From Desulfomicrobium baculatum DSM 4028 (lineage in GTDB: Bacteria > Desulfobacterota > Desulfovibrionia > Desulfovibrionales > Desulfomicrobiaceae), in assembly GCF_000023225.1 (NCBI RefSeq), contig NC_013173.1, forward strand, positions 3,102,501-3,166,500: DNA of 64,000 nucleotides, read 5' to 3'. Shown piece by piece: positions 2,488 to 7,726 of this stretch (its first letter is position 1; each line of letters begins with the position of its first letter). Below the pieces are notes generated by a model, which saw only the letters and a list, made by a program, of their open reading frames with translations, was not told the origin of the DNA and searched no databases. The position numbers were made by a program, and so were the translations under genes.

Positions 2488-3930
2488 TTAACGGAAGAAA
2501 AGAAAGGTCATGAGCACGAAACAGGGAACCAGAATGCCCACGGACCAGGCCATGTAGCCGAAGAAGCTGGGCATCTTGATCCCGCTCGACTCCGCGATGG
2601 ACCGGACCATGAAGTTGGGGGCGTTGCCGATATAGGTGTTGGCGCCCATGAACACCGCACCCGCCGAGATGGCCATGAGGGTATGCACGTGTTCCATCAG
2701 GAAGTGCGCGTCGCCACCGGCGGTGTTGAAGAAGACCAGATAGGTCGGAGCATTGTCCAGGAAGCTCGACAGAGCGCCGGTCAGCCAGAAGTACATGGCG
2801 TTGTTGGCCACGCCGTCGACGGAGACCAGGGCAATGAGGCTCGACAAGGCGCCGTCCATGCCCGCGCGCAGGATGGAGATGGCCGGGATCATGGTCAGGA
2901 AGATGCCGGCGAATAGCTTGGCCACCTCGACAATGGGCTCCCAGTTGAACTCGTTGCGGCGGCGGATCTCGGCGGCCGTGGTCTTGAGACTCACACCGGC
3001 CAGGATCAGAAGCAGCACGTCGCGAGCGATGTTCTGCAGTTCCATGTGCACGTGATAAACAACCACGCCGCCCTCGGGCTTCCACATGCCGCTCATGAGC
3101 ACGCCGCCGACCACGCCGGCCAGCAGGAGCAGGTTGAAGGTGCCTTCCAGGCGCAGTTTGCCGTCCTGGCCCGCGTCAGGAGACTCGGGGCGGCCCTCCT
3201 TGTTGAAAAGCATTGTGTCGATGACGAAATACAGGCTCAGCAGAATGACCGACATGACCGCGAAGGGAACAAAAAGATGCTGCGTGGTCCAGAAAAAGGA
3301 CACGCCCTTCAAGAAGCCCAGAAACAGCGGCGGATCGCCCAAGGGGGTCAGACTGCCACCGATGTTGGCCACCAGAAAGATGAAGAACACGATGGTGTGC
3401 ACCTTGTATTTGCGATGCGAGATGGCCCGCATGAGCGGACGGATGAGCAGCATGGCCGCGCCGGTGGTGCCCATCCAGCTGGCCAGCAAGGTGCCGATCA
3501 GCAGAATGACCGTGTTGACCACGGGCTTCCCCACCAGGGAGCCGCGCAGACACACTCCGCCGGCGATGGTGAACAGCGAAAAAAGCAGGATCAGAAACGA
3601 AACGTACTCCAGGGCAATGGTGTGCACCACGGAATACAGCGCCAGTTCGTAACCATGGAACAGGGCGAAGGGCACGAGGAAAGCCACGCTCCAGAAAGCC
3701 GCCACCTTGCCGTAATGATGATGCCAGAAATGCGGTACGGCCAAAGGCATGACGGCGATGGAAAGAAGCATGCACGCAAAGGGAACCACCCAAAGCACGC
3801 TCAGATGTTTGCCGATCTCCTCGGCCTCATGGTGCAAATCCCCTGCGGAAGCCCAAACATCCGGCAAGACGCCAAGAACCCCCAGGCCTATGGCCGCCAG
3901 GCAAAAAAACCAGACAGAACTTTTTCGCAT
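2488..3930 (-). CDS. nhaD: NhaD-type Na+/H+ antiporter (copy 1)
   Basis: 480 residues, a polytopic inner-membrane protein of the ion transporter superfamily. An N-terminal hydrophobic segment (residues 6-22) resembles a cleaved signal or first membrane helix. The NhaD family signature NIGGSLTPLGDPPLFLG lies at 189-205 and a second conserved half-membrane motif, FLDNAPTY, near the C-terminal third. The family exchanges cytoplasmic Na+ (or Li+) for external H+, giving pH and salt homeostasis. It starts at an ATG preceded by AAGGAGA and is followed by uspA. Its upstream region is an unusually long gene-free leader (3931-4363) with an internal terminator-like hairpin. Copy 2 (4932-6374) is the same length. 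Substrate is from family knowledge, not shown here. Confidence 0.9.
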   Translation of the reverse strand: MRKSSVWFFCLAAIGLGVLGVLPDVWASAGDLHHEAEEIGKHLSVLWVVPFACMLLSIAVMPLAVPHFWHHHYGKVAAFWSVAFLVPFALFHGYELALYSVVHTIALEYVSFLILLFSLFTIAGGVCLRGSLVGKPVVNTVILLIGTLLASWMGTTGAAMLLIRPLMRAISHRKYKVHTIVFFIFLVANIGGSLTPLGDPPLFLGFLKGVSFFWTTQHLFVPFAVMSVILLSLYFVIDTMLFNKEGRPESPDAGQDGKLRLEGTFNLLLLAGVVGGVLMSGMWKPEGGVVVYHVHMELQNIARDVLLLILAGVSLKTTAAEIRRRNEFNWEPIVEVAKLFAGIFLTMIPAISILRAGMDGALSSLIALVSVDGVANNAMYFWLTGALSSFLDNAPTYLVFFNTAGGDAHFLMEHVHTLMAISAGAVFMGANTYIGNAPNFMVRSIAESSGIKMPSFFGYMAWSVGILVPCFVLMTFLFFR

Positions 3931-4036
3931 CCGATGTTCTCCTTATAGGCTGCCACCCGTAGTGACAGTCAGCTCACGTGCACGTTGGAGCGTCTTGCGG
4001 ACGCCCGGCCTTCCTCCCGATCACCTCGTGACCCCC

Positions 4037-4102
4037 AAAAAAAACAGGCCACTCATTGGGCATCCATGAACGCAACACGGCTTCATGCCCGCCAAACGGC
4101 CC
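4037..4102 (-). promoter_or_regulatory. Terminator-like attenuator candidate in the nhaD copy 1 leader
   Basis: On the minus strand a GGCC...GGCC outer stem with an inner GGGC/GCCC and ATGAA/TTCAT stem is followed at once by eight T residues (4044-4037), about 107 nt before the nhaD start. The 5' arm GGGCCGT (4102-4096) can instead pair with an upstream ACGGCCC (4251-4245), which would make an antiterminator. No known riboswitch class was recognised. The alternative is that this is the terminator of a separate small RNA. Confidence 0.45.
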
Positions 4103-4112
4103 AAAGTACGAA

Positions 4113-4140
4113 CCCGGACTTTCCATCGAAACAGTCCGGG
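4113..4140 (-). promoter_or_regulatory. Strong leader hairpin upstream of nhaD copy 1
   Basis: Seven perfect pairs (CCCGGAC with GTCCGGG) are extended inward by TTTC/GAAA around a GATG loop. It lies between the proposed antiterminator strand (4245-4251) and the terminator hairpin, where an aptamer stem would be expected. Function is unknown. Confidence 0.4.
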
Positions 4141-4356
4141 CGACATGTGCGCCGACGCGATGATCCCCCACCTCTTGTGCCGGATTTCACACACGGGTGG
4201 GTGCATATGCCATATCCTTTTCCAGAGCAATACCCCCTGAAAAAGGGCCGTGTGCCTTGCTTACCGGGCGCGATAGGCGAACGGGCCCGGATCGGAACGC
4301 GTCGTGCTGATTTTTCTTGTAATTTCGTACTGAAACGATTCGAAAACCTGTTCCCC

Positions 4357-4392
4357 AAAAAAAGCGGCCGCCTCCCTTCCGGAGACGGCCGC
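4357..4392 (-). terminator. Intrinsic terminator of the second nhaD-uspA unit
   Basis: GCGGCCG...CGGCCGC arms with an inner CTCC/GGAG stem (4364-4392) are followed on the minus strand by seven T residues (4363-4357). It lies 32 nt after the uspA copy 2 stop and isolates this unit from nhaD copy 1. Confidence 0.8.
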
Positions 4393-4423: not shown

Positions 4424-4888
4424 TTACAACCCGCAGGCGTCCTGCAGGTACTTCACACGCAGGTTGCGCGTGACCAGCACGGGGCAGGTCGCGCCTTCAA
4501 GCACGCGCGTGACCACGCTGCCCATGATCACGTTCTCAAGCACCGACAGGCCGCGCGAGCCGATGACGATGAGATCGCAATCAAGCTCGTCCTGCACGTT
4601 CAGAATCACATAATCCGGGCGGCCGCTCCGCGCGATCAGTTCCACTTCCAGGCCGCAGGGCTCAAGCAGGCTCTTGTATTCCTCCAGCATCTCCATGGCC
4701 TTGGCATGGGCCCGCTCGCGCAGTTTCTCCGCCTTTTCGCCGCCGATGGTCATGTTGATGGGCTCCCAGACGTTGAGCAGATAAAGCTTGGCGCTGCGGG
4801 GGCTGACCAGATGCGCGGCATACTTGGCCGCGTTCCTGGAAGAGTCCGAACCGTCGACAGGTATGAGTACACGTTCGATTTTGATCAT
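4424..4888 (-). CDS. Universal stress protein, UspA family (copy 2)
   Basis: 154 residues, a single Usp domain with the same ATP-loop glycines as copy 1 (G110, G113, G123, S124). The C-terminal half, including the nucleotide loop, is almost unchanged between the copies. Most of the roughly 26 differences fall at residues 24-35 and 52-80, which in this fold are surface helices. It follows nhaD copy 2 after a 43-nt gap with a conserved hairpin and the ribosome binding site GGAGATAC. The likely role is as an ATP-sensing partner of the linked antiporter, by inference from gene pairing only. Confidence 0.93.
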   Translation of the reverse strand: MIKIERVLIPVDGSDSSRNAAKYAAHLVSPRSAKLYLLNVWEPINMTIGGEKAEKLRERAHAKAMEMLEEYKSLLEPCGLEVELIARSGRPDYVILNVQDELDCDLIVIGSRGLSVLENVIMGSVVTRVLEGATCPVLVTRNLRVKYLQDACGL

Positions 4889-4931: not shown

Positions 4932-6374
4932 TTAATGGAAAAAGAGGTAGTTCATCAATACGAAGCTGGGCACCAGGATGCCTGCGGACCAGGCCATGTA
5001 GCCGAAGAAGCTGGGCATCTTGATGCCGCCCGTTTCAGCGATGGACCGGACCATGAAGTTGGGAGCGTTGCCGATGTAGGTACATGCTCCGAAGAAGACC
5101 GCGCCTGCGGAAATGGCAAGCAGCGTGCCCACCTCCGTCATCAGGCGCTGCGCGTCGCCGCCGGCCGTGTTGAAGAACACGACATAGGTCGGGGCGTTGT
5201 CCAGGAAGGCGGACAGGGCTCCGGTCAGCCAGAAGTACATGGTGTGATTGTCGAGCCCCTCGGCAGTCTTGACCATGGAAATGATGCCGTTCAAGGCGCC
5301 GTCCATGCCTGCGCGCAGGATGGAGATGGCCGGAATCATGGAGATGAAGATGCCGGAGAAGAGCTTGGCGACCTCGCGGATGGGCTCCCAGTCGAACTCG
5401 TTGCGACGGCGGATTTCCGGAGCCGTGATCTTGAGGCTGACAAAAGCCAGGGCCACAAGCAGCACGTCGCGCAGGATGTTCTGCAACTCCACGTGGACTT
5501 CGTAGACGGTGATCTCGACACCGGGCTTCCACATGCCGCTCATGAGCACGCCGCCGACCACGCCGGCCAGCAGGAGCAGGTTGGCGGTGCCTTCCAGGCG
5601 CAGCTTGCCGTCCTGGCCCGCGTCAGGAGACTCGGGACGGCCTTCCTTATTGAAGAGCACCGTGTCGATGGCAAAATACAGCGCGAGCAGAATGGTCGAA
5701 ATGACCGCAAACGGCACGAACATGTGCACCGTGGTCCAGAAGAAGGACACGCCCTTCAAAAAGCCCAGAAACAGCGGTGGATCACCCAGAGGCGTGAGGC
5801 TGCCGCCGATGTTGGCCACCAGGAAAATGAAAAAGACGATGGTATGGACCTTGTACTTGCGGTGCGCGATGGCGCGCATGAGCGGCCGGATCAGCAGCAT
5901 GGCCGCGCCGGTGGTGCCCATCCAGCTGGCCAGCAGGGTGCCGATCAGCAGGATGACCACGTTGACCTGCGGCTTGCCCACCAGAGAGCCGCGCAGGCAC
6001 ACGCCGCCGGCGATGGTGAACAGGGAAAAGAGCAGGATGATGAAGGAGATGTACTCCAGAAACAGGACATGCAGCACATTGTAGACGGCCAGATCGAAAC
6101 CGTACACCAGGGCGTACGGCACGATAAAGGCCGCGCCCCAGAAGGCCGCGACCTTGCCGTAATTGTGATGCCAGAAATGAGGAATCGCCAGCGGCATGAT
6201 GGCAATGGACAAAAGCAGACCCGCAAAGGGCACGACCCAGAGCACGCCCATCTGCTTGCCTATTTCATCCGCAGCATGGTGCAGCCCCCCGGCGGCCCAG
6301 ACTTCAAGCGACATGCCAAGCACTCCCAGGCCCATGACTGCCAGGCAAAAAAACCACACAGAACTTTTCCGCAT
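4932..6374 (-). CDS. nhaD: NhaD-type Na+/H+ antiporter (copy 2)
   Basis: 480 residues from the chosen ATG, the same length as copy 1 and colinear without gaps. It has the NhaD signature NIGGSLTPLGDPPLFLG and the FLDNAPTY motif. An in-frame ATG at 6446 would add 24 residues but reaches into bioA and has no ribosome binding site, whereas the ATG at 6374 has AAGGAGA eight bases upstream, identical to copy 1. The family is an inner-membrane Na+/H+ exchanger. It lies 68 nt downstream of bioA on the same strand with no clear terminator between them, so read-through from bioA is possible. The copies share sequence up to the ribosome binding site and diverge abruptly beyond it. Confidence 0.9.
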   Translation of the reverse strand: MRKSSVWFFCLAVMGLGVLGMSLEVWAAGGLHHAADEIGKQMGVLWVVPFAGLLLSIAIMPLAIPHFWHHNYGKVAAFWGAAFIVPYALVYGFDLAVYNVLHVLFLEYISFIILLFSLFTIAGGVCLRGSLVGKPQVNVVILLIGTLLASWMGTTGAAMLLIRPLMRAIAHRKYKVHTIVFFIFLVANIGGSLTPLGDPPLFLGFLKGVSFFWTTVHMFVPFAVISTILLALYFAIDTVLFNKEGRPESPDAGQDGKLRLEGTANLLLLAGVVGGVLMSGMWKPGVEITVYEVHVELQNILRDVLLVALAFVSLKITAPEIRRRNEFDWEPIREVAKLFSGIFISMIPAISILRAGMDGALNGIISMVKTAEGLDNHTMYFWLTGALSAFLDNAPTYVVFFNTAGGDAQRLMTEVGTLLAISAGAVFFGACTYIGNAPNFMVRSIAETGGIKMPSFFGYMAWSAGILVPSFVLMNYLFFH

Positions 6375-6442: not shown

Positions 6443-7726
6443 TCAACGAAAATGCTCCGCCACGACCTTGACCAAGGATTTGGTCAAAAAGGCCAGGTCC
6501 TGGTCATCCGTGATGTATGGCGGCATCACGTACACCAAACGGCCAAAGGGACGAACCCAGACGCCCTGTTCGACAAAAGCGTTCTGAATTTCGGCCATGC
6601 GCACCGGTTCCTCCAGCTCCACCACTCCGATGGCGCCAAGGATGCGCACGTCTGAAATGTAGGACAAATTTCGGCACGGGGCAAGGCCGATTGTCAGGGA
6701 ACGCCCGATTCGCGCCACTTGCGCGGCCCAGTCGGTTTCGACAAGCAGGCGCAGGGACGCGCGTGCCACAGCGCAGGCCAAAGGGTTGCCCATGAAGGTC
6801 GGTCCGTGCATGAACACCCCGGGATCTCCCGTGCAGACGCCCTCTGCCACGCGATCCGTGGCCAGGGTCGCGGCCAGGGTCATGTAGCCTCCGGTCAGGG
6901 CCTTGCCCAGGCACATGATGTCCGGACTGATGCCGGCGTGCTCGCAGGCGAAAAGCGTGCCCGTGCGGCCGAAGCCGGTGGCGATCTCGTCGGCGATGAG
7001 CAGCACGTCAAAGGCATCGCAGAGTTCTCGCACGCGTTTTACGTACATGGGATGATAAAAGTACATGCCCCCCGCGCCCTGCACCACGGGCTCAAGGATC
7101 ACGGCCGCGATTTCATGGTGATGGCGTTCAAGCGCCTCGCGCATGGGGGTGATGTCGTTGTCGTCCCACTCGTCACCGAAGCGGCAGCCGGGCCGTGGCA
7201 CGAAATGATGCCTGGACAGGACGCCTGAAAAGCTCTCGTGCATTCCGTTCACAGGGTCGCACACGCTCATGGCTGCAAACGTGTCGCCGTGGTAGCCGCC
7301 CCGGATGGTCAAAAGACGATTCTTTGTGCTCTGCCCCCGGCAAATCCAATACTGGAAGGCCATCTTGATGGCGACCTCCACGGCCACGGAACCGGAATCG
7401 GCCAGAAAAACCTTGGTCAGGGGCGCGGGCGTGAGGTCCACCAGCGCCCGGCACAACTCCACTGCCGGCTCATGGGTCAGGCCGCCGAACATGACGTGGG
7501 CCATGCGGGAGAGCTGATCGGTTACGGCGGCGTTCAGGATCGGATGATTGTAGCCGTGGATGGCCGCCCACCAGGAGGCCATGCCGTCGACGAGTTCCCG
7601 GCCACCTTTGAGCTTCAGGCGCACGCCGTGTGCGGAAACCACCTCGCGCACGGGCAGGGGGTTGGTCGTCGATGTGTAGGGGTGCCAGATGTGCTGGCGG
7701 TCAAAATCCAGGATGTCGCGTGTCAT
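6443..7726 (-). CDS. bioA: Adenosylmethionine-8-amino-7-oxononanoate aminotransferase
   Basis: 427 residues, a fold-type I PLP aminotransferase of class III. It has the N-terminal IWHPYTS substrate motif typical of BioA, the cofactor-binding [14 protein letters not shown] segment, the [13 protein letters not shown] region with the PLP-contacting Asp, and the Schiff-base lysine K275 in CLGKALTGG. The enzyme transfers the amino group of S-adenosylmethionine to KAPA, giving DAPA, the antepenultimate step of biotin synthesis. No other bio gene is adjacent and no BirA operator was recognised upstream. The distinction from other class III enzymes rests on the N-terminal motif and the overall match, and is fairly secure. 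Confidence 0.93.

Follow-up and report, generated by a model that had tools for sequence, protein, structure and literature searches.

Results

Two tandem transporter units, one preceded by a long leader

The window analysed here is a 64,000-nt stretch of the Desulfomicrobium baculatum DSM 4028 genome, which consists of one contig of 3,942,657 bases. On the minus strand, bioA is followed by transporter copy 2, usp, a strong terminator, the leader under study, transporter copy 1 and usp (Table 1). The duplicated unit thus includes downstream genes, giving two tandem transporter-usp units. The transporter proteins matched Pfam CitMHS_2 ('Putative citrate transport') and CitMHS, and had no NCBIfam or PDB match. 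The designation nhaD, used in a preliminary description made from the sequence, is kept as a working name; antiporter function and a role for Na+ are putative and unproven for this CitMHS_2 gene. The usp gene upstream of the leader has a terminator of its own, which probably makes copy 1 dependent on the leader.

The transporter was present in 20 of the 22 genomes of the family, and in 11 of the 22 an intergenic region of 425–500 nt separated usp from a second transporter copy. The set of eleven leaders comprises G000, G001, G002, G003, G006, G010, G011, G012, G013, G015 and G018; G005 stands outside the counts, contig ends having cut its copy 1 and leader region. Comparison with plasmid records gave no match.

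In the tree the two transporter copies of G011 (L026, L038) pair with each other, as happens in no other two-copy genome of its genus, and gene conversion between the tandem copies is likely. The copy 1 genes of G000 and G012 are 97% identical in protein, whereas their leaders (window 3931–4340 and L014) gave no blastn match; conversely, G000 and G011 have the leader in common (78% over 416 nt) and less similar copy 1 genes (81% in protein). These mismatches between leader and gene are signs of recombination at the leader. In G018 (L040), which belongs to another genus and has two copies, no bioA was recognised within 1500 nt upstream of the other copy; by eye, a scrap resembling the bioA end lies in front of it.

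Table 1. Features of the bioA–transporter region, in window coordinates
Feature	Position	Strand	Basis
Transporter copy 1 ('nhaD' of the preliminary description)	2488–3930	-	Pfam PF16980 CitMHS_2, E 1e-198
RNA element B before the copy 1 start codon: outer GGC/GCC helix, P1, P2, AAGGAG (3939–3944)	3931–4011	-	Covariation
Terminator hairpin Pt with U8 (4037–4044)	4037–4102	-	Folding; T6–T8 in 8/11 leaders
Hairpin Pb, CCCGGAC / GTCCGGG	4113–4140	-	Folding
Leader 5' stem, opposite the V-R-x-L and V-R-M-A codons of bioA in the alignment	4142–4195	-	Alignment, folding
Conserved promoter-like DNA block: TTGCTC (4225–4230), 17 nt, TATGCA (4202–4207)	4202–4233	-	6/12 matches to sigma-70 consensus
Terminator hairpin 3' of upstream usp, T7 at 4357–4363	4364–4392	-	Consensus scan
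usp upstream of the leader	4424–4888	-	
Transporter copy 2 (start 6374)	4932–6374	-	CitMHS_2
Counterpart of element B at copy 2, weaker and spanning the bioA stop codon	6375–6462	-	Model R2, 29.1 bits, E 4.4e-7
bioA	6443–7726	-	
bioA tail, within which synonymous variation is strongly reduced over about 30 codons in nine two-copy genomes	6443–6600 (bounds approximate)	-	
Leader counterpart in the bioA 3' coding end	6487–6666	-	Model R1, 58 bits, E 1.9e-15; alignment

The leader contains a predicted intrinsic terminator

The preliminary description had placed a hairpin ending in eight U residues ahead of copy 1, with a second, strong hairpin upstream of it. Both are there in the letters, the U run lying 106 nt from the ATG. 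The strong hairpin, Pb, was not equalled in stability by any of 200 shuffled sequences (z -4.47), whereas the Pt hairpin proper (4046–4102, -25.1 kcal/mol) was moderately stable (z -1.75, 10 of 200 shuffles as stable) and the 5' stem ordinary (z -1.03). Taken as a whole, positions 4038–4345 were somewhat more stable than shuffled sequences (z -2.46, 2 of 100), and the effect was weaker over 3931–4345 (z -1.67, 7 of 100). The window contains six runs of T8 or longer, both strands counted, so that a T8 alone is not rare there. A consensus terminator scan did not flag Pt, probably because internal loops break its stem.

Across the relatives the T run measures T6–T8 in eight of the eleven leaders and T5 in the other three (G012, G003 and G001), always 99–106 nt before the gene. 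A GGCC-based hairpin directly precedes it in six of the seven leaders that were folded, G010 having a different hairpin; in G018 a T6 sits in another hairpin and is followed by T5, and G012, G003 and G001 have no matching terminator stem. The arrangement of terminator hairpin and U run upstream of the gene is that of an intrinsic-terminator attenuator, and we would expect it to terminate transcription in vivo.

The leader shares descent with the 3' end of bioA

A covariance model (R1) was built from the leaders of G000, G011, G013, G006, G002, G015 and G010, with no bioA sequence included, and searched with strict filters in 247 genomes of the order. Beyond its own seven leaders, it matched with 49–61 bits in 11 genomes, at sites 107–113 nt upstream of the bioA-linked transporter copy; all other matches reached at most 24.4 bits, and one of these weak matches, in G245 (22.8 bits), overlaps a site that the bioA tail also matched in a DNA search. 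R1 missed the leaders of G012, G003, G001 and G018, which are further diverged from the seven than bioA is. Among one-copy genomes, G004 and G014 gave weak matches (24 and 18 bits) and G007, G008 and G009 none.

The correspondence extends to codons. In a MAFFT alignment read by eye, the promoter-like block of the leader aligns to G-L-A of bioA, the 5' stem to V-R-x-L and V-R-M-A-E, the leader pieces CCGGGTTCG..CTTTGGCCGTTTGG to 24 protein letters (not reproduced) and D-Q-D-L-A-F, and GGCTGGGC to V-A-G-H. The in-frame alignment has been lost; the homology stays in register with bioA and the downstream gene in 11 genomes. Together, the R1 match and the codon alignment show the leader to be a decayed end of bioA. 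The earlier statement that the other nhaD copy lacks this leader has to be revised: copy 2 has the coding original. By sequence comparison the leader and the bioA tail share descent, presumably via a tandem duplication of the bioA tail, transporter and usp. In a search for a mobile donor, one 24-base piece of the tail had no exact match in viral contigs, and a DNA search with the tail (E <= 0.001) gave only one match in its own genome.

A promoter-like block is conserved in all eleven leaders

Upstream of the hairpins, a block of a TTGC and a TAT hexamer 17 nt apart occurs once in each of the 11 leaders. It agrees with the sigma-70 consensus at 6–7 of 12 positions, and no promoter came out of a consensus scan. 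When up to two mismatches were allowed, the pattern had 12 matches in 11 of the 22 genomes, ten of them at leaders; the remaining two (a second place in G000 and one in G009) are at chance level, the reversed control also giving two. Two other readings of the block were discarded. Its spacing does not fit a sigma-54 promoter, as judged by eye against the consensus, and no RNA hairpin folds consistently at this position across the 11 leaders. The block may be a promoter for the leader.

Covariation is clearest in element B

Covariation in relatives, which had been named in the preliminary description as a check on the leader, gave a divided result. RNAalifold recovered the 5' stem, Pb and the terminator hairpin from seven leaders, with five pairs changed on both sides. 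When the structure was drawn by hand on the same, unfitted leader alignment, two-sided changes were at shuffle level (2 pairs as compared with 2.0). When leaders and bioA tails were aligned by fitting to the model (24 matches, 16 distinct), there were 36 two-sided cells as compared with 13.5 in shuffles, 0 of 500 of which reached 36, although such an alignment leans to its model.

The firmest signal came from element B, directly before the copy 1 start codon. Across 12 sequences 96.9% of cells were paired, and 14 two-sided cells were found as compared with 4.0 after shuffling (0 of 500 shuffles reached this number). In the window the element is of ordinary stability (z 0.98). A model of the element, R2, also recognised the weaker counterpart at copy 2; at E up to 0.1 it had matches, mostly weak, in 106 of the 247 genomes. 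Six loci outside the family (L166, L167, L169–L172) were considered as occurrences of element B in other genera and rejected, since none encodes the transporter in the stretch examined.

Descent from bioA with loss of the reading frame would also be expected of a decaying pseudogene scrap, whose conserved pieces are slow remnants devoid of function, and both the shuffle-level covariation of the unfitted alignment and the four of 11 leaders missed by R1 fit that account. However, several lineages have retained these same pieces where the sequence next to them can hardly be aligned, and the position of the T run is constant. We consider it improbable that the leader is such a scrap.

No shared switch or known riboswitch was found

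The preliminary description recognised no known riboswitch class, and this agrees with an Rfam search of the window, in which nothing reached the gathering score. At E 10 the leader gave no riboswitch and only unrelated weak matches. Unrelated weak matches were also all that the loci of nine relatives gave. A search including Na+ and DUF1646 motifs had been suggested at the outset; in that search neither Na+-I (RF03071) nor nhaA-I (RF03057) passed its cut-off in any of the 22 family genomes. Below the cut-off, at E up to 1, Na+-I had matches in 8 of 22 genomes and nhaA-I in 15 of 22, and among the matches listed none lay at these leaders. The idea was reasonable: as two reports describe, Na+ riboswitches are linked to terminators and can precede Na+/H+ antiporter genes, and rare Na+-II variants with terminators occur in Deltaproteobacteria, with nhaD among the associated genes (PMC9337991, PMC9646797). 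The models do not support it here. Our literature search found no paper joining Desulfomicrobium and NhaD.

An antiterminator had also been proposed, in which GGGCCGT (4096–4102), in the 5' arm of the terminator, would pair with ACGGCCC (4245–4251). Both heptamers are present and complementary as letters. The upstream partner, however, is kept in only four of seven leaders (G000, G011, G013 and G006; it is missing in G002, G015 and G010) and lies upstream of the promoter-like block. The latter argument weakens if transcription starts further upstream than we suppose, and the agreement of the block with the sigma-70 consensus is only partial. In folds of the nascent transcripts, upstream pairing of the terminator 5' arm stayed below 0.07 in G011, G013 and G006, was partial in G000 (up to 0.33) and G015 (up to 0.42), and was strong in G002 (up to 0.98) and G010 (up to 0.75), where the partners differ. 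The seven leaders thus have no shared upstream partner for the arm, and the mutually exclusive antiterminator of an attenuator of this type was not found. A leader peptide was also discarded, by eye only, the open frame of one species being stopped in another.

The first proposal of an attenuator holds as to a structured leader with an intrinsic-type terminator and is not supported as to control by a ligand or ion. Hairpins laid out before a terminator, a 5' stem common to several leaders and the covariation of element B are what a riboswitch of some undescribed class, sensing a metabolite or an ion and acting on the terminator, might present. It would have to do so with no Rfam riboswitch match, with Na+-I and nhaA-I below cut-off throughout the family, with no shared antiterminator and, in G012, G003 and G001, with no matching terminator stem. 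Moreover, no aptamer-like conserved core was seen in the leader: the segment between the hairpins diverges strongly across species, which is unlike a conserved aptamer. We regard such a riboswitch as very improbable.

The succession of hairpins with no shared switch in the seven folded leaders is compatible with an independent small RNA, about 155 nt long and having its own promoter and terminator, copy 1 being expressed by a little read-through or from elsewhere. Measured from the TAT hexamer through the final T run, the 11 leaders span 158–171 nt, which would suit such a transcript. Most trans-acting RNAs are not so poorly conserved between their hairpins as this leader is, however, and every site that R1 scored above 25 bits is in front of this gene, being either the leader or its counterpart in bioA. 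These points make a separate small RNA unlikely.

Synonymous sites are almost frozen at the end of bioA in two-copy genomes

In nine two-copy genomes the synonymous pair difference was 0.082 at alignment codons 418–447, as compared with 0.351 in the bioA body (36 pairs); none of 20,000 permutations reached this value, and the lowest equal-sized window elsewhere was 0.233. G015 and G005 were left out of these statistics and of the tree, and so was G018, with no bioA recognised in front of its other copy, from the counts. The same codons showed no lowering in five one-copy genomes (0.60 versus 0.50 in the rest, 10 pairs). Between the groups (20 of 45 pairs) the tail differed more than the body in 16 pairs and less in the four with G008, with means of 0.67 for the tail and 0.51 for the body. 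In a tree of the bioA body the nine two-copy genomes form one clade (support 0.97), so the frozen tail counts as one event and not nine. From these comparisons we infer a single change in the tail, which has been maintained since.

The transporter copies of eight genomes had no such frozen window, the lowest value in full 40-codon windows being 0.215. Hairpin stability was rejected as an explanation for the frozen codons, since z against synonymous shuffles ranged from -0.45 to +1.4 in the nine two-copy genomes; against dinucleotide shuffles, the bioA-tail hairpin of the window was more stable (z -2.96). The pattern suggests that the end of bioA is under a nucleotide-level constraint beyond that of the protein, just before the downstream gene, be it through an RNA, an operator or something else.

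Discussion

The account that we favour, and hold to be probable, is that the leader was inherited from coding sequence and that its terminator attenuates copy 1, with no ligand indicated. A tandem duplication would have copied the end of bioA, the transporter and usp, after which the extra bioA end would have lost its reading frame and become the leader of copy 1. This leader would have kept or sharpened the promoter-like block, several hairpins and the U-run hairpin, which would serve as an intrinsic terminator. Transcripts from the block would mostly end at 4037, and read-through would make copy 1, so that the terminator attenuates it. Element B, just before the start codon, probably shapes translation.

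Of these findings, the frozen end of bioA in the two-copy genomes is the one of greatest interest. More tentatively, a regulatory element for the transporter may lie inside the last bioA codons; the duplication would then have freed the second copy from the protein code, and this copy may have become, in the course of evolution, a leader whose terminator is stronger. We think this possible, with the balance somewhat against it.

If this is correct, a regulatory leader can arise straight out of the sequence that codes for the end of a neighbouring protein, and the locus points to a hidden nucleotide-level signal in the biotin gene bioA, one that could be tested by synonymous changes. The locus is also a warning that a terminator leader before a transporter should not be called a riboswitch before relatives have been compared.

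The leader resembles 5'-leader attenuators with an intrinsic terminator in that a U-run hairpin lies between a promoter-like block and the gene; it differs from them in having neither a shared antiterminator nor a known aptamer and in descending from a protein-coding 3' end. A likeness also exists to Na+-I (DUF1646 motif, RF03071) and to nhaA-I / Li+-I and Na+-II (RF03057), which can precede Na+/H+ antiporter genes with a terminator as possible output (PMC9337991, PMC9646797). Unlike those riboswitches, the present leaders belong to a family of 22 genomes in which neither model passes its cut-off.

Elements that regulate a gene from within the coding end of the gene upstream of it are a known kind. 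The bioA end resembles them in its apparent nucleotide-level constraint beyond the protein, before a downstream gene. It differs from them in that a coding-free duplicate exists alongside it, and if an embedded element is indeed present, the locus would amount to a natural experiment, with one cis-regulatory element present side by side in a coding and a coding-free form.
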